Below are positions 40,244-48,030 of a DNA stretch of 64,000 nucleotides, piece by piece. The translations under genes and the position numbers were made by a program. The stretch lies in the NCBI RefSeq assembly GCF_003025005.1, contig NZ_PVSS01000009.1, positions 242 through 64,241 of the forward strand. The letters run 5' to 3'. Origin of the DNA: Brumimicrobium mesophilum. Lineage in GTDB: Bacteria; Bacteroidota; Bacteroidia; Flavobacteriales_D; Crocinitomicaceae. The notes beneath the pieces were generated by a model, which made no database searches, was not told where the DNA came from, and saw nothing but the letters and a program-made list of their open reading frames with translations. The stretch's first letter is position 1. The number at the start of each line of letters is the position of its first letter.

Positions 40244-42092
40244 ATGAAAGAAGTTTACATCACAAGTTCAGGTACTTTTTTACCAAATGAAGCGATTTCG
40301 AATGAAGAAATGGAAGACTATTTAGGTCGAATAAATGGTAAAGACAGCCGAGCAAAAAATCGTATTCTTAAGCAAAACGGAATTAAATCCAGGTATTTTG
40401 CACTAAATAAAAACCAAGAAACTACGCATTCGAATGCTCAACTGGCAATAAACGCGGTCAATAATGCTTTGTATAAAAGCATTATTGACCGCAGATGTCG
40501 AATTTTTATGCACAGGAACTACTCAAGCGGACCTCCCAATCCCGGGATTTGCAAGTATGGTTCATGCAGGACTTGACATCAACCGATGTGAAGTAGCCAG
40601 CTTTCAAAGTGTTTGTGCGAGTGGAATGATGGCTTTGAAAAATGCTTATTCTCAGATTAAAAGTGAAGAAAAGGAAAATGCTGTTTGTGTGGGAAGTGAA
40701 TTGGCTTCTCGCCTATTTAAATCTTCAAGATTTGAAGCCCAAGGCGTAGATTCTTTGCCTTTTGATTCCGAATTTCTTCGATGGATGCTTTCCGATGGAG
40801 CTGGTGCAATGGTACTTCAAAACAAAAAAAACGAAAATGGAATCTCTTTGAAAATTGATTGGATTGATTTAAAATCTCATGCCAACGAATTTCCTGTTTG
40901 TATGTTCACCGGTAAAACGGACAACAAGAATGAAGAGGAACAAACTTGGTTAGATTACCCTAGTTATGAAGAAGCTTCAAAAGCCGGCGCAATAAATTTA
41001 AAGCAAGACACCCGATTACTAGACAAGGTAATTAAAGCTGGAGTTGCACATTATTTCGACTTAATAGATCAAGGGAAAGTCAAGAAAAACAAAATAGATT
41101 GGTTATGTTGTCATTATTCATCTGAAATTTTCAAAGAACCTATTAAAGAATTAATGCTAAAAGGTGGTGGAGAAATAACTGATGAAAAATGGTTCAGCAA
41201 TCTTACCACAAAAGGAAATACCGGAGCAGCCTCAATTTTTATTATGTTAGAAGAATTGATGTATTCGAAAAAATTGAAAGTAGGAGATAAAATCCTTTGT
41301 ATGGTTCCTGAAAGTGGAAGGTTCATCACTTCTTTCATGCAGTTAACGGTAGTTGGAAACGAAGAATCAAATTCAAAAAAATATCCAGTTAGAGAAATTG
41401 AATCACCAGAATTAGTCATTGATAAAAACGAAACTTCTGAATGGTTGATTAGAAATTTAGCACAAATTTGGATTGATTTCGAGACTGAATTACTTAAAGT
41501 TCCTATCATTACTAAAATTCATGACGGGAAATTGAGCATTTCGGATTACAAATTATTACTTCATGATTTGAGGCAACAAGTAATTGATGGTTCTTTGTGG
41601 ATTTCTAGAGCGGCTTCTAATATAGATATCGATTTATTTGAATTAAGGTCAGCATTCATAAAACATACCGCTGCAGAACACAAAGATTATCAAATGTTGG
41701 AAAGAAATTACGAAGCTTTAGGTGAAAACATTGAAATGATTAGAACAGGTGAACAGAACATTGGAACCGTGGCGTTGACTTCGTTTATGTTTCAACAAGC
41801 GAGTAAAAACAACCCTGTTGACTTGCTTGGTGCAATGTTTATCATAGAAGGAATCGGGAAGAGACTCGCTGGATACTGGGGTGAAATGATTAAAGATCAG
41901 ATGAATTTAAAAGACAATCAAGTTTCTTTTTTCACTTATCATGGTGTAGCAGATGAAAATCATTTTCATAACTTAGAAGAAGCTTTAAATCATCCGAGCA
42001 TGAATATGGATGTGGCTAGAAAAATTGTAAAAACTGCTAAAACAACAGCTAAATTATACATTTTGCAGTTGAAAGAATTAGGCAATTATTAA
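40244..42092 (+). pseudogene. Ketoacyl-ACP synthase III fused to heme-oxygenase-like domain, frameshifted
   Basis: One extra base breaks this gene. The first frame (40244-40576) encodes a KAS III N-terminus (MKEVYITSSGTFLPNEAI); the second (open from 40452, first ATG 40464, stop 42092) carries the rest. Deleting one A from AAAA at 40475-40478 restores ALYKALLTADVEFLCTG and a 615-residue protein. In that numbering the thiolase-fold triad is complete: Cys124 (SVCASGM), His290 (CCHYSSE), Asn325 (GNTGAAS). Residues beyond ~390 form a helical heme-oxygenase-like domain (HTAAEHKDYQML, HGVADENHFHNLEEAL) of the di-iron HDO type. It should condense acyl chains and oxidise the product. Only 3 and 9 bases separate it from its neighbours. 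Confidence 0.8.
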
Positions 42093-42101
42093 AAATAGAG
42101 T

Positions 42102-42998
42102 ATGATAAACGAAAATATGGATATTTCAGCGCACGACGATAGAGATCCTAATCCTTGGTTGGCGTTACTTTTAGATGACAGTATTCCAATTAATCAAACC
42201 ACAAAAATGGCCTTGATGAGAGATAACGCATCGAAATCTGTGAGGTATTTTATGCCTGTGATTCAGTTATTCTCCAAAATCACAATGTTTTTCATTCACA
42301 TTTTTAAGTTTTTCTTCCCTAAATTGATCAATTCTTCAAAATTCTTGCATCGTATATTAGCTTGGGGACTCAAAAGATTTGTAAGTCCGGATGCAAACCT
42401 GCTTATATTTAGACACTTTCACGTTGGAACTGAAATTTTACAGTTTATAGAAGGGAATGTCCCCAATATTGAAATCAACGGAAACCCTCTAAAACCTAAA
42501 GATTTTAATGATGTAAAGGACGATTTGTTTTTAAATCATGATTTGAATTTGTACAATTTCGTAATAAGACTAAACAGTCAAATGAAAGAGAAGAACATTA
42601 CAATCACTCCACCTGAAAAAATCAATTTAGATATGATTACGGTAGATCAATTCGATCACATCAAATTCCCAAATAAATGGACCAACTTTTTAGATTTGCG
42701 TTCAGCAATAGAACTTTTTACTCCCTTTTATCAATTATTTTTAACTTCTAATGATTTTATTCGAGCATCAAACTCACTTCAATTAGATGAAACAATAGCT
42801 ATTTATGCATCACAAATTCTCGGAACTCCTGGACATTTAGGTCTAGTGAACAACAAACACCCGATGGTTCCTGTTACAACTTACAGTGCAGCATATAGAT
42901 TGGTTTTGCATGGATTAGCCGCAGAAACGCTACACGAGGTATTGGTTAAAATGAAGACCAATAAAAATATCGATGGAATTGTAACTCCTAAGACCTAA
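42102..42998 (+). CDS. Unrecognised third protein of the ketosynthase-HDO operon
   Basis: The 298-residue product has no family I can name with certainty. A hydrophobic, aromatic stretch (IQLFSKITMFFIHIFKFFFP, about 53-72) suggests one membrane or lipid-facing helix without a signal peptide. A conserved-looking RHFHVGTEILQFIEGN follows and could bind a metal through its His-x-His, and the end is helical (AYRLVLHGLAAETLHEV). It begins nine bases after the stop of the ketosynthase-HDO gene, so it is almost certainly co-translated with it and likely acts on the same lipid product. Confidence 0.7.
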   Translation: MINENMDISAHDDRDPNPWLALLLDDSIPINQTTKMALMRDNASKSVRYFMPVIQLFSKITMFFIHIFKFFFPKLINSSKFLHRILAWGLKRFVSPDANLLIFRHFHVGTEILQFIEGNVPNIEINGNPLKPKDFNDVKDDLFLNHDLNLYNFVIRLNSQMKEKNITITPPEKINLDMITVDQFDHIKFPNKWTNFLDLRSAIELFTPFYQLFLTSNDFIRASNSLQLDETIAIYASQILGTPGHLGLVNNKHPMVPVTTYSAAYRLVLHGLAAETLHEVLVKMKTNKNIDGIVTPKT

Positions 42999-43116
42999 AA
43001 TCAATTTTTATTCTTAACTTTAAATGAGAAATAAGACACTACACATCTCATGAACAAACAGTTAAACAACTTTAGTATTCTTGAGCAGTCTGATTATATT
43101 CACTAATATTGAAGTT

Positions 43117-44508
43117 ATGAAACCCATTTTATCAAAAATACTAGTAGTTTTTTTCCTTTCGAATATCGGGCTAAGTATTCATGCTCAAGGATCTGGAGGA
43201 GGAGAATACAACCACAATCACGAAAAATCTCCTTGTTTAACTTCTGAACAAAGACAAAATATTATTCACCAATTAAATGAAAGCAAGAAGAATTTAATTG
43301 AGCAAAATAATTACATTCAATCGAATGTACGAACTCCTAGTTCTCTTTTTATTTGGCCAGTAGAACAAGCGACCAATGTTAATTATCATGAAATTTGGGG
43401 AATCTCCAATTATGTCGATCACAATCAAAATTACCCAAACCAATTAACAGATTATTCGGGTGGAACGAGAACTTATGACACACAATCAGGATACAATCAT
43501 CAAGGAATAGATATTTTCACTTGGCCATTTCCTTGGAAAATGCAAGATGAAGATGGTTTGAGAGTTATTGCCGCTTCAGATGGTCAAATTATTTATAAAA
43601 ATGATGGTGAATTTGACAGGAGTTGCAATTTCAATAACAATATTTGGAACGCTGTTTATGTCAAACACAACGATGGAAGTGTTGCATGGTATGGACACCT
43701 CAAAAATGGCTCTCTTACTTCAAAAAGTATTGGTTCTACAGTGAGCCAAGGGGAATATTTAGGAATTGTGGGCAGTTCCGGAAATTCAACTGGACCTCAT
43801 TTGCATTTTGAAGTTTATGAAGATGATTCCTATGCCTTAAATAAATTGATAGACCCTTATGCTGGACCATCGAACACATGGAATTCAACATCTTGGTGGG
43901 AAAATCAGAAACCCTATTTGAACCCAACAATAAATGGCTTAACAACAAATAGCGCTCCTGTTGATTTGAGTAATTGTCCGACGCAGGAAACTACAAATGA
44001 ACAAGACAATTTCCAACCAAATCAAACGGTTTATTTTACAGTATTTCTAAAAGATCAGCTGAATGAAAGCTTCGTTTTGAAAGTTATTAAACCAGACAAT
44101 TCTATCCATCAAACTTGGACCAAAAATTTATCAGAAGATTATGTTGCATCTTATTATTGGTATTCTAAAAATGTGACTTCCCAAGGCTTATGGAAAGTTG
44201 AATGTATATTGAGCACAGGTCAAGTATTGACACATAATTTCACCGTGGGTAACTTAAACACAGAATATTATGATTTAAAAAACTTGAGCATATACCCTAA
44301 TCCTGTAAAAGACATATTAAATATTAAAACTGAATCTAGAATCATCAAAGTTGAAGTTAGAGATGCTTTAGGTAAGAGAATTCATAGTGCTGAAAATAAA
44401 AGTAAGGGAATTACAAAAGTGAATACAGAAGCGTTTTCTAAAGGAATTTATTTTATCACCGTTATGGATAAAAATTCTCAAGAGAAGACCTTAAAGTTTG
44501 TTAAGTAA
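43117..44508 (+). CDS. T9SS-secreted M23 (LytM) metallopeptidase
   Basis: The frame is open from a TTG at 43081, but the signal peptide (MKPILSKILVVFFLSNIG through IHAQ) begins at ATG 43117, which I use; the product is 463 residues. The LytM zinc site is complete: His128 and Asp132 in YNHQGIDIF, with His228 and His230 in GPHLHFEVY, and WYGHLKNGSL and GSSGNSTG between them. These enzymes cut peptidoglycan cross-links or peptides. The last ~75 residues are a T9SS type A sorting domain (LSIYPNPVKDILNI ... KTLKFVK), so the enzyme acts outside the cell, perhaps against other bacteria. Confidence 0.9.
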   Translation: MKPILSKILVVFFLSNIGLSIHAQGSGGGEYNHNHEKSPCLTSEQRQNIIHQLNESKKNLIEQNNYIQSNVRTPSSLFIWPVEQATNVNYHEIWGISNYVDHNQNYPNQLTDYSGGTRTYDTQSGYNHQGIDIFTWPFPWKMQDEDGLRVIAASDGQIIYKNDGEFDRSCNFNNNIWNAVYVKHNDGSVAWYGHLKNGSLTSKSIGSTVSQGEYLGIVGSSGNSTGPHLHFEVYEDDSYALNKLIDPYAGPSNTWNSTSWWENQKPYLNPTINGLTTNSAPVDLSNCPTQETTNEQDNFQPNQTVYFTVFLKDQLNESFVLKVIKPDNSIHQTWTKNLSEDYVASYYWYSKNVTSQGLWKVECILSTGQVLTHNFTVGNLNTEYYDLKNLSIYPNPVKDILNIKTESRIIKVEVRDALGKRIHSAENKSKGITKVNTEAFSKGIYFITVMDKNSQEKTLKFVK

Positions 44509-44708: not shown

Positions 44709-45236
44709 TTGACAAGGAATAAGAACATACTATTTTACCTAACAGCATTAGGGATTTTCATTCTTTTGAAACTACTTTATACTTTATCCGAAACAAGTGA
44801 TTTATTATTTATACTCAGTCCAACAAATAAAATAATTGAGCTCATCACTGGTTCCCAAGCAACATTCATTATTGGAGAAGGTTATTTTTATGATAAATTG
44901 AACATTATCATTGATAAATCTTGTTCAGGATTTAACTTTTGGTTGCTCTGCTTCCTAATGCTTAGTTTTCTAAGCATTAAATATTTTACCAGTTCGTTGG
45001 TTAAAGCTTTAATGCTGTTAATTTCATTCGTTGGAGCATACATTTTTACGGTTCTAGTGAATAGCTCAAGAATATTCACCTCAATAATTATAGAAAAGAA
45101 ATTTCATTCTCTACCAAACCAATCGGTAATTCACGAAGGTATTGGAATAATTACTAACCTCACATTTTTGATCCTCATCTATTTAGCTGTGGAAAAAATA
45201 TTACAAAAACGAAACTCACATGCGAACATTGCTTAA
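44709..45236 (+). CDS. xrtK: Exosortase K
   Basis: Exosortases are polytopic membrane transpeptidase-like enzymes that cut and transfer proteins carrying a short C-terminal signal. The 175-residue product has about five spans and the catalytic triad: Cys72 in DKSCSGFNFW, Arg121 in NSSRIFTS and His142 in IHEGIGIITN. Its small size and the HEGIGIITNLTFLI block are those of the XrtK type. The gene starts with TTG at 44709 and overlaps the start of the next gene by 17 bases. That gene encodes a protein with the matching MSEP-CTERM signal, so this is a dedicated pair. Confidence 0.9.
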   Translation: MTRNKNILFYLTALGIFILLKLLYTLSETSDLLFILSPTNKIIELITGSQATFIIGEGYFYDKLNIIIDKSCSGFNFWLLCFLMLSFLSIKYFTSSLVKALMLLISFVGAYIFTVLVNSSRIFTSIIIEKKFHSLPNQSVIHEGIGIITNLTFLILIYLAVEKILQKRNSHANIA

Positions 45237-48030
45237 TCCAAAATGGCTATTTCTTGTAAATACCTTACCAATTGTAATTTTATTTCTCCTTTTCAATAAT
45301 GATTTTCAAATCATAAAAACCCTGCTCGATGAAGAAAATATTATCGTTTGGAAGAAGTTTGGTTGGACTTTGGGAATATTAGGACTAGCTAATTTCGGCT
45401 ATGCTATTTACTTGACGCGAAAACAGAAAAATATTTCAATTTGGTATGCATTAATCGCACTACCAACATACATCACTTTCATTTATTTATATGGATTTTA
45501 TTCTCATGAGATAATTCCATTTTCGATTCCACGATGGATGATTTCTGAAAATTTACTCGTTTATGTGGGTACGTTCTTAATGCCTACTTTAGCTTATGCA
45601 TTATTTATTCTAGTAACTCAAATAACCATTAAAAAAGATGATCCTAGAGCATGGAAAAGTCTATTTATCGCCATTTTTATTCCTGTAATCTGGTATATCT
45701 TTTCACAAGTTATACTTCCACTTTGGCAACCTGTGGGAGATAAGTTCGGAATCCACTCTATGCTAATACTACTCATAATTGGCACACTATTTTTTTTATT
45801 TTTCCTTACGCAAAGCGCACTTATCCTTTTAACAAAAAAAGCGGATACATTACAGAAATATGAACTCGTTTGGAAAATTCCAATTGCAATTATATTCCCA
45901 ATAATAGGCTTGTTGGTGAATAATGGCTCTTTTTCCAATGGTTTTAGTACCACAAGCTCTGGTATTTTCGGAGATTTCAATAGTTATTGGTATTTCATAT
46001 TAGCAATTCTCAATGGAATATTCATCTGTTTGCCAAACCTTGAAAACAAGATTTATAGAACTTTTTTATTTATTGGAAGAAGCATTACACTAGTTTACAC
46101 ATTCTATTTCTTCGTGGTTTTTCTTCCTTTCTTACCCCTTTCCGTAGTTGCCATTATTGCAGTAGGAACAGGATTTTTAATGTTAACGCCTCTGCTCCTA
46201 TTTATCCTTCACATCAATGAATTGGTTAAAGATTTCAAATACTTAAAAAATCAATATTCTTCTACGCAAATTTGGTCCATATCAATTGGAGGTTTCTTGA
46301 TAATTCCACTGTTCATAATCGCTAGTTATTCCAGTGATAGAAACACCTTAAATGAAGCTTTAGCCTATGTTTATAGTCCAGATTATTCAAAAGAATATGA
46401 TATTGATGAAGAATCGTTAGAAAAAACTTTAAGTGTTTTAAGAAAACATAAAGTCAATAATAGAGGTGGAATTTTCGGAAGTCAACAACCCTATTTGTCC
46501 ACTATTTTCAATTGGATAGTTTTAGACAATCTAACTTTATCAAACTCCAAAATAGACAATCTTGAAAGTATATTCTTAGGAAAAGAACCTCGAAATGTAA
46601 GAACAGACATTATTCAAAATAATAAGGTTGAAATCACTGAGATTACTTCTAAAAGCACTTTTGATAAATCTCAAAATGCTTGGAAAAGTTTGATCGATTT
46701 AGAAATCACGAATAAAAACGAAGATTCATGGATGGCAGAGTATGCCACAACAATCGATTTGCCGGAAGGAACATGGATTAGCGATTATTATCTCTATGTT
46801 TTTGACAAGAAAGAAATGGGGATTTTAGCTGAAAAAAGAACTGCAATGTGGGTTTTTTCTAGCATTAGAAATGAGAACAGAGATCCTGGAATTTTGTATT
46901 ATTTATCAGGAAACAAAGTTGGATTTAGGGTTTTTCCATTTGCAAAAAATGAAGTTCGGAAAACTGGAATTGAACTTTTACACAAAGATCCAATTCAAAT
47001 AACAATTGATGATCATGCACTGAATCTTGGACAATCTCTCAACAAACCAAAACCACATTTAAGTGTCGAAAATGATAATGCAGTTTATGTTTCAACGTCA
47101 GAAAAAGAGAAATTAAAGGAAATTAAAAGAAAACCATATTTCCATTTTTTAGTCAATTCAACCGCAAAAGAAAACATTAAGAAATACATTAAACGCATTA
47201 AAGCAATTGCAGAAAAACATAAAGATTTAGCTGAAAATGCGAAAATCAGCTTTGTAAATAAATATGTAACAAGCACTTCTTATAATTCCAATTGGGAAGA
47301 GGAATTAAATAAGCAAAACTTTGAGGGCGGATTTTACTTGGATAGGGCCATAAAGTCAACGTTATATAATTCATACAAAGCTCAAGAAAAATCTTATCCA
47401 GTGATTGTTGTTTTAACTGATGACTTAGAAAATGCTATTTTGAATAAAGACTTTTCAGATTGGAATTTTGCCTTTCCTGAACCAGATATATTCTATAATT
47501 TGACCAAGAATATAAAACTTGAACCTCATTCATTGCTTGCTAATCCAAAGTTAGTTACAAAGGACAGTCTAGCTCTGTCATTTGATCAACCTGTATTGGA
47601 ATATCCTTTATCTGACAAAAGTATTCGCTACATCTCAAATGATGAAAATCCAAGCATTATTCTAAAATCAGACAAGTTTGAAAGTGATGAGAAAAACATG
47701 AAAGAAAATAACTGGAATTCCGCATTAACGATGCAGGCTATGTGGAGATCTCAAATTCTTCATCCAGAAACAACCCAAACCGAATGGTTAAACCTTGTAA
47801 AACACAGTTTTGTTTCCAAAGTAATGTCGCCCGTAACTTCGTTTTTAGTAGTAGAAAATGAAGCTCAAAAGGCTATTCTAAAAAAGAAACAGAAAGAGGT
47901 TTTATCAAGCAATAAAGATTTAGATATTGGAGAGGACACAAGACGAATGAGCGAACCAAGTTGGCTTATTTTGGCGATTTTGTTGGGAATCACAGTCTAT
48001 TTCAGAAAGAAAAGGCAAGTTCAACATTGA
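45220..48030 (+). CDS. MSEP-CTERM protein, presumed sole substrate of exosortase K
   Basis: The 936-residue product has roughly ten N-terminal membrane spans (about 1-390), a large periplasmic part, and at the C-terminus the tripartite sorting signal: Met910-Ser-Glu-Pro, a hydrophobic helix (WLILAILLGITVYF) and basic RKKRQ. The periplasmic part contains a VIT-like region (LPEGTWISDYYLYVFD, EKRTAMWVFSSIRN, VGFRVFPFAKNEVRKTGIE) followed by a segment (PYFHFLVNSTAKENIKKYI) where a von Willebrand A domain would have its metal site, here without the DxSxS residues. Overlap with xrtK by 17 bases makes coupled translation likely. The role is unknown. Confidence 0.88.
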   Translation: MRTLLNPKWLFLVNTLPIVILFLLFNNDFQIIKTLLDEENIIVWKKFGWTLGILGLANFGYAIYLTRKQKNISIWYALIALPTYITFIYLYGFYSHEIIPFSIPRWMISENLLVYVGTFLMPTLAYALFILVTQITIKKDDPRAWKSLFIAIFIPVIWYIFSQVILPLWQPVGDKFGIHSMLILLIIGTLFFLFFLTQSALILLTKKADTLQKYELVWKIPIAIIFPIIGLLVNNGSFSNGFSTTSSGIFGDFNSYWYFILAILNGIFICLPNLENKIYRTFLFIGRSITLVYTFYFFVVFLPFLPLSVVAIIAVGTGFLMLTPLLLFILHINELVKDFKYLKNQYSSTQIWSISIGGFLIIPLFIIASYSSDRNTLNEALAYVYSPDYSKEYDIDEESLEKTLSVLRKHKVNNRGGIFGSQQPYLSTIFNWIVLDNLTLSNSKIDNLESIFLGKEPRNVRTDIIQNNKVEITEITSKSTFDKSQNAWKSLIDLEITNKNEDSWMAEYATTIDLPEGTWISDYYLYVFDKKEMGILAEKRTAMWVFSSIRNENRDPGILYYLSGNKVGFRVFPFAKNEVRKTGIELLHKDPIQITIDDHALNLGQSLNKPKPHLSVENDNAVYVSTSEKEKLKEIKRKPYFHFLVNSTAKENIKKYIKRIKAIAEKHKDLAENAKISFVNKYVTSTSYNSNWEEELNKQNFEGGFYLDRAIKSTLYNSYKAQEKSYPVIVVLTDDLENAILNKDFSDWNFAFPEPDIFYNLTKNIKLEPHSLLANPKLVTKDSLALSFDQPVLEYPLSDKSIRYISNDENPSIILKSDKFESDEKNMKENNWNSALTMQAMWRSQILHPETTQTEWLNLVKHSFVSKVMSPVTSFLVVENEAQKAILKKKQKEVLSSNKDLDIGEDTRRMSEPSWLILAILLGITVYFRKKRQVQH

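Follow-up and report, generated by a model that had tools for sequence, protein, structure and literature searches.

Overlapping genes of an exosortase and its predicted target

Here we describe a pair of overlapping genes, xrtK and an MSEP-CTERM gene, which lie in a 64,000-nucleotide stretch of a Brumimicrobium mesophilum contig (the whole of it is called the window below) and are predicted to encode an exosortase and its dedicated target. The xrtK gene (44709..45236, plus strand) has a TTG start and encodes exosortase K, a protein of 175 amino acids that scored 155 bits against TIGR04287 (cut-off 55). It is followed on the plus strand by the gene of a 936-amino-acid MSEP-CTERM protein (45220..48030), which scored 950 bits against TIGR04286 (cut-off 150) and covered positions 2-916 of the 920 in that profile. 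The two open reading frames (ORFs) share 17 bases (45220..45236, plus strand). The same frames and the same overlap had been given in an earlier reading made from the DNA letters by a model (the sequence-only reading), which had also proposed a Cys72-Arg121-His142 triad. This assignment was fully supported: the Cys-Arg-His triad of exosortase K is present in the window enzyme, and each of the three residues was invariant in 77/77 aligned XrtK proteins. The codons are found on the plus strand at 44922..44924 (Cys72, the predicted nucleophile), 45069..45071 (Arg121) and 45132..45134 (His142). When the genome of the window was searched with TIGR04178, one exosortase was found, and it was this XrtK.

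In the following, a homologue of the MSEP-CTERM-type protein is called a body, whatever its tail. The tail of the window protein is a C-terminal sorting signal of 27 residues (47947..48027, plus strand), recognised from the sequence, the AlphaFold helix and the charge; it consists of MSEP (910-913), a helix (915-935) and a basic end, in agreement with the tripartite signal described before. The last 14 residues were net positive in 74/74 aligned body rows.

Both families of the pair are already curated in NCBIfam, and by sequence both window proteins are ordinary members of them (TIGR04287 and TIGR04286), with scores far above the cut-offs; the sole deviation found was in two metal-site residues, N646 and T648. 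An adjacent XrtK gene is, as we take it, part of the TIGR04286 family description, and the window gene adjoins xrtK in just this way, with its 17-base overlap. On the other hand, the window protein did not reach the cut-off of TIGR04477, the VIT protein of the XrtN system (54 bits against 250), and is by sequence a relative of these proteins and not a member. It also gave no match to NF046080 (PID-CTERM) at E <= 1, its tail being MSEP and not PID. In the open-access literature, with subscription papers mostly outside its scope, we found no mention of exosortase K, of XrtK together with exosortase or of MSEP-CTERM, and no paper bringing an exosortase together with a VIT domain; searches for PID-CTERM, for XrtX or exosortase X and for XrtN or exosortase N returned only papers unrelated by title.

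Topology and fold of the MSEP-CTERM protein

The N-terminal part of the protein is a polytopic membrane domain (residues 1-370; 45220..46329, plus strand), the N terminus being predicted as cytoplasmic. Hydropathy and charge, considered over 74 rows, gave 11 spans when one long hydrophobic stretch was counted as two, and the AlphaFold model of the window protein also contained 11 membrane helices, with a predicted local distance difference test score (pLDDT) of 86.3 and a predicted template modelling score of 0.83. The earlier estimate of about ten spans is therefore replaced by 11. Lysine plus arginine averaged 15.9 in the loops called cytoplasmic and 4.4 in those called periplasmic (74 rows, with loop borders set by hand), and the inside count was higher than the outside count in 74/74 body rows. 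On this prediction, residues 370-912 are periplasmic, and the final helix crosses from outside to inside, in the orientation that an exosortase substrate needs. The MSEP motif is accordingly predicted on the periplasmic side, and neither charge and hydropathy nor AlphaFold placed it inside the cytoplasm.

The predicted periplasmic part contains a VIT-like beta domain (residues 470-603; 46627..47028, plus strand), a vWA domain (residues 637-790; 47128..47589, plus strand) and a remaining heavy-chain-like region (residues 791-895; 47590..47904, plus strand). In a Foldseek comparison of the model with the PDB, the top three places went to inter-alpha-inhibitor heavy chain 1, with E values from 1.1e-8 (6fpz) to 2.0e-8, making it the best structural match of the periplasmic domain with its VIT, vWA and following regions. 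These alignments (6fpy and 6fpz, the latter covering model residues 467-884) showed 9-11% identity, a root-mean-square deviation (rmsd) of 14-16 and a template modelling score (TM-score) of 0.18-0.30; since the rmsd and TM-score hold over the whole alignment, the heavy-chain domains match better than their arrangement. A second structural comparison with heavy chain 1 gave Z 9.1 over 307 residues, again for model residues 467-884. The fourth Foldseek match below 0.001 for the whole model was an axonemal chain (E 4.8e-4), and a profile search of PDB sequences returned ITIH4 alone (E 0.11). The vWA region was aligned to CMG2 (1sht) with Z 10.0 and rmsd 3.4 over 137 residues. The VIT family PF08487 was not reached at its gathering cut-off by the window protein (14.3 bits against 26.5), and it was matched at E <= 0.1 in 30/30 body rows sampled from the 74 (best 1.9e-11). 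The membrane domain modelled alone (pLDDT 86.7) had no PDB match at E <= 0.001; its Z scores of up to 8.4 came from helical pieces only.

Heavy chain 1 is a secreted animal protein, whereas the window protein is a predicted inner-membrane protein. One published account describes inter-alpha-inhibitor heavy chains as covalently joined to glycans (PMC7170535), and for the window protein this joining is an analogy and not evidence. The vWA metal site had been called degenerate by the sequence-only reading (NST instead of DxSxS), which is true of the window protein but does not describe its family: the column of residue 646 holds D in 73/74 rows, with N in the window alone, and that of residue 648 holds S in 70/74, the window being one of two rows with T. 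Nor is the third Ser of DxSxS a conserved residue of this family.

Pairing of XrtK with its partner across genomes

The pairing was followed in a class sample of 395 genomes and a phylum sample of 296 genomes, which share genomes, the window's own included. In the class sample, XrtK was above cut-off in 9/395 genomes, and a body gene lay directly downstream in 9/9; the view of the other eight loci covered just the beginning of the body, without its tail, and the body of one of them (L168) is split over two frames. The phylum sample contained XrtK in 4/296 genomes and a body in 5/296. Both were present in four of them, and the one genome with a body but without XrtK was G166. A scan of named genomes and metagenome-assembled genomes (MAGs) yielded 125 body relatives, and 80 loci were kept, in 73 of which XrtK adjoined the body. 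Among the seven loci without an adjoining XrtK, the contigs of two (L045 and L070) start about 90 bases upstream, and the other five are Hymenobacter. The two genes overlapped in 66 of the 73 pairs, and the overlap was the same 17 bases in 47 of the 73 (start codons were picked by hand). Furthermore, the pairwise distances of XrtK and body correlated with r 0.91 over 70 taxa, a value as high being reached in 0/2000 permutations. The body rows were mostly from Bacteroidota, together with a few MAGs labelled Spirochaetota, Fibrobacterota, Elusimicrobiota or Pseudomonadota, for which misbinning is possible.

These counts (9/9 XrtK genomes and 73/80 body loci) bear out the idea of a dedicated one-enzyme, one-target pair, and an XrtK without an MSEP-CTERM partner was not found in the genomes searched. 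The pairing is strict when viewed from XrtK's side. The claim of exactly one partner per XrtK holds in this direction, but the converse fails, because 26/41 bodies in a Hymenobacter-like genus occur without XrtK, 25 of these 26 carrying a PID-type tail.

A natural exchange of the sorting tail

The Hymenobacter-like genus comprises 120 genomes around G166 and was taken as Hymenobacter because 12 bodies from it are duplicates of rows that bear a Hymenobacter name. A body was present in 41/120 genomes and XrtK in 15, all 15 being among the 41. The tail of the bodies with XrtK was MSEP in 13 and MTEP in two. The PID-type tails of the 25 bodies without XrtK read VPID (8), VPLD (8), TPID (3), TPLD (3), TPVD (2) and IPID (1), and in the 26th (G696) the body gene was broken into several frames (L248), its last piece reading VPLN. 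G696 retains two exosortases. An exosortase other than XrtK was detected in 25/26 genomes with an XrtK-less body, in 4/15 XrtK genomes and in 54/79 genomes without a body; four such enzymes were typed, and all four were XrtX.

The PID_CTERM family (NF046080, cut-off 26 bits) was passed by 2/4 scanned PID-type bodies, the other two reaching 25.0 and 21.9, and by 5/6 PID-type bodies in the genome search. Among 13 Hymenobacter-like genomes (12 of them named) that were examined closely, each of the nine with a non-XrtK exosortase had PID_CTERM matches (1-4), and the four with XrtK alone had zero. In the three of the 13 that hold both enzymes, the body tail stays M[ST]EP. Between the two Hymenobacter groups (15 against 25 rows), identity averaged 0.46 over the body and 0.67 immediately ahead of the tail; within the tail it was 0.20. 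When compared with the tails of 20 small PID proteins, the PID-type body tails were identical at 0.47 and the MSEP tails at 0.20.

A quick maximum-likelihood tree was built from bodies minus their tails (106 rows, with long branches elsewhere). The 25 PID-tailed rows formed a single clade, with a Shimodaira-Hasegawa-like approximate likelihood ratio test (SH-aLRT) value of 100, inside the Hymenobacter group (SH-aLRT 100), the remaining 15 rows of which carry M[ST]EP tails. Judging from this tree, the tail was most likely swapped once, as a natural signal swap. Several independent swaps were also considered and were unsupported, given the single clade on the quick tree. Relics of XrtK were sought beside the PID-tailed bodies and none was convincing; the recurrent short matches turned out to be a shared palindrome in the DNA upstream of the gene. 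In relatives lacking XrtK the partner protein thus carries the tail type of another enzyme, and this is natural evidence for a genuine sorting signal.

One kind of body with three exosortases

As far as sequence comparison goes, one kind of body occurs with three enzyme-tail combinations (K, X and N). The XrtN system (TIGR04476 with the TIGR04477 VIT protein) resembles the window pair in having a homologous body, an adjacent exosortase and a tail made of a motif, a helix and a basic end. Its VIT protein was above cut-off in 3/296 genomes. The XrtN-type body aligned with the MSEP body at an hhalign E of 6.5e-20 over 341 columns, which include the last helices and the VIT region, and it scored 78 bits against TIGR04286. 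A polytopic target, which had seemed unusual in the sequence-only reading, is thus not unique, as the target of the XrtN system is a homologous polytopic protein. In place of MSEP, all three XrtN-type bodies have a tail reading GAVPEPHEW, and next to each there is a gene of exosortase size, either overlapping the body gene or following it; two of these genes were typed, both as XrtN. The XrtN enzyme is 418-447 amino acids long (ORFs taken from stop to stop) compared with 175 for the window XrtK, and its gene lies downstream of the body, whereas that of XrtK lies upstream. A 316-amino-acid ORF in G166 (L288, C2:103558-104181) matched the model of the XrtN-type body at positions 66-290 only and is perhaps a stand-alone membrane domain.

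The XrtX system (NF046081), with PID-CTERM (NF046080), would by co-occurrence serve the same body in the XrtK-less Hymenobacter-like genomes. It differs from the window system, which has one target, in the one to four PID_CTERM matches present in each of the nine genomes with any. In the 25 genomes of this type the gene of the second exosortase lies apart from the body, while the XrtK gene adjoins it. A marine proteobacterial sortase target (TIGR03788) was matched weakly, by 9/30 sampled body rows at E <= 0.1 (best 0.0031), and the body score was far below its cut-off (11.0 bits against 551.65 in one scan). TIGR03788 is a VIT/vWA family served by a dedicated sortase and not by an exosortase.

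An operator upstream of the pair in relatives

A core palindrome, CTTTG-N5-CAAAG, mostly extended to ACTTTG-N5-CAAAGT, was found at 27/27 loci (26 genomes) in which the body has no XrtK, upstream of the body, and in 14/15 XrtK Hymenobacter loci, where it precedes the body or the XrtK gene. It was also present in 25/68 other named loci, in two of which (L046 and L108) it was not upstream of the pair, and just upstream of the body in 2/3 loci of the XrtN system (L254 2862 and L256 2836). The extended form gave 45 sites in 35/80 named loci; 119 permuted palindromes on the same 80 loci gave a mean of 0.06 sites and a maximum of 1. When its ends were relaxed to A/G and T/C, 46/50 sites headed a same-strand gene run ending in the body (gaps up to 400 bases were allowed), and of the remaining sites three headed Cre/HTH runs and one neither. 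The operator ACTTTGnnnnnCAAAGT, usually followed by nCTTT, heads XrtK-MSEP, HTH_34 and creD operons, as in the examples at L052 2052 and 3015, L059 11 and 1566, L092 4467 and L114 4861.

The recurrent neighbours in the 80 loci, typed by Pfam with one representative per group, were a 213-amino-acid membrane protein (13; no Pfam match for its one representative), CreD-like (10), HTH_34-like (9), DUF4153 (8) and DUF1361 (8) proteins. In six whole genomes, a stricter form of the operator had 9 matches and the reversed control 0. This form undercounts, because G299, with zero strict matches, holds a variant-end site beside the body. Of the two strict matches in Dysgonomonas alginatilytica, one lay before XrtK-MSEP and the other before a creD gene beside an HTH_34 gene, and one of three strict matches in Hymenobacter norwichensis was at XrtK. 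The genes adjoining the other two H. norwichensis sites (L258 and L262) do not match the neighbour representatives and may be regulon members or chance matches.

From its position, the HTH_34 protein would be the one that binds the palindrome. Open-access literature on CreD and winged helix in Bacteroidetes gave only papers unrelated by title. Defects of the envelope are reported for a Stenotrophomonas mutant in creD (PMC4689548), and the operator of many relatives (not of the window), often accompanied by HTH_34 and creD genes, is a pointer to envelope integrity. Likewise, the palindrome common to creD operons hints at when the system is used.

A putative second tether and its alternatives

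The computation shows that the genes pair, that the triad is present and that tail type goes with enzyme type, and it yields the predicted topology and fold as well as the operator and neighbours that relatives have in common; cleavage, transfer, acceptor and role are what we infer. We see roughly an even chance that XrtK acts in the inner membrane as a dedicated sorting enzyme of the thiol type, with the MSEP-CTERM protein as its target, whose C terminus is passed to an acceptor as a second tether. The target would be laid out as 11 helices, the periplasmic heavy-chain-like domain (VIT, vWA and following region), MSEP, the last helix and a basic cytoplasmic end. Cys72 would attack near MSEP, the last helix would be discarded, and the new C terminus would be handed to the acceptor, a lipid or a glycan. 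The outcome would be a second covalent tether, an inner-membrane link to another envelope molecule and not a release, because the domain is still held by the 11 helices. Release of the large domain, as the sequence-only reading had it, was considered and rejected: in the predicted topology a cut at MSEP leaves the domain on its 11 N-terminal helices, so that only tethering or trimming is possible. The role is likely to be in envelope integrity.

A wider and more speculative proposal, to which we give a rather low probability, is that bacteria have in these proteins their own counterpart of inter-alpha-inhibitor heavy chains. The periplasmic heavy-chain-like domain of a protein in the inner membrane would be joined covalently at its C terminus to an envelope polymer by exosortase K, X or N, whichever is present in the genome, the tail serving as an exchangeable module, and in many species its production would be switched, within an envelope-integrity response, by the operator common to creD and the HTH_34 regulator.

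Several observations weigh against this interpretation. Heavy chains make use of the vWA metal site (the metal ion-dependent adhesion site, MIDAS), and in the window protein this site is altered (N646 and T648). The strict operator had 0 matches in the window's own genome, the core palindrome is absent from the window, and no CreD match was obtained in that genome; the regulatory link therefore does not carry over directly. Among the neighbours typed by Pfam (one per group), none was an obvious acceptor-making gene. The enzyme-tail matching rests on co-occurrence, and G744, a genome with a PID-type tail, showed no exosortase (600 contigs, 90% complete). As far as the tree tells, the swap is one evolutionary event (25 rows, one clade), and 26 genomes are therefore not 26 independent tests. 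We are aware of no experiment in which an exosortase K target is cleaved.

The alternative that survives best, though we think it rather unlikely, is that XrtK only trims its target, removing the last helix for maturation or activation and leaving the freed C terminus bare, after which the domain would move or bind a partner. Trimming is compatible with the same pairing, topology and tail-swap data, and as 11 helices already hold the domain a second anchor would be unneeded. However, exosortases, archaeosortases and rhombosortases appear to leave their substrates anchored, which suggests a new moiety at the cut (PMC11980579). A membrane sensor that sends a signal on cleavage by XrtK, as had been supposed from the sequence, is improbable: the many spans, the fold of ligand-binding type and the HTH_34-like regulator genes in 9/80 loci would suit it, but family profile scans of the window protein revealed no signalling domain on the cytoplasmic side, the palindromic sites upstream of the operon in relatives make the pair resemble an output and not an input, and no support for a sensor was found. 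There is also little chance that the last helix is an ordinary anchor on which XrtK does not act, the genes being merely co-transcribed; this fits the lack of direct evidence of cleavage, but XrtK absence coincides with exchange for the tail typical of XrtX genomes, the XrtN-associated body has yet another tail, and C72, R121 and H142 are invariant.

The second tether remains the reading that we prefer, and the interest of the system lies in the comparisons, namely the swapped tail, the heavy-chain fold, the operator and a body that three exosortase systems have in common. No bench test is known to us for these four, and few exosortase targets have, to our knowledge, been tested. As enzyme and target stand 1:1 and relatives with the other tail provide a natural control, three questions can be tested directly in common laboratory bacteria: how specific the signal is, what the acceptor is and what a polytopic target is for. 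XrtF, another exosortase type, is reported to matter for surface colonisation in Flavobacterium johnsoniae (PMC10936215), so that exosortases of Bacteroidota can have measurable phenotypes.

Neighbouring genes in the window

Directly upstream of xrtK, the window encodes an M23 peptidase (43081-44508) that carries a sorting tail for type IX secretion. Farther upstream, a StlD/DarB-like ketosynthase is joined to a heme-oxygenase-like domain (40464-42092); as the N-terminal part of this gene lies upstream in another frame, there seems to be either a frameshift in it or an error in the sequence. The ketosynthase is adjoined by a DUF6999 protein (42102-42998).

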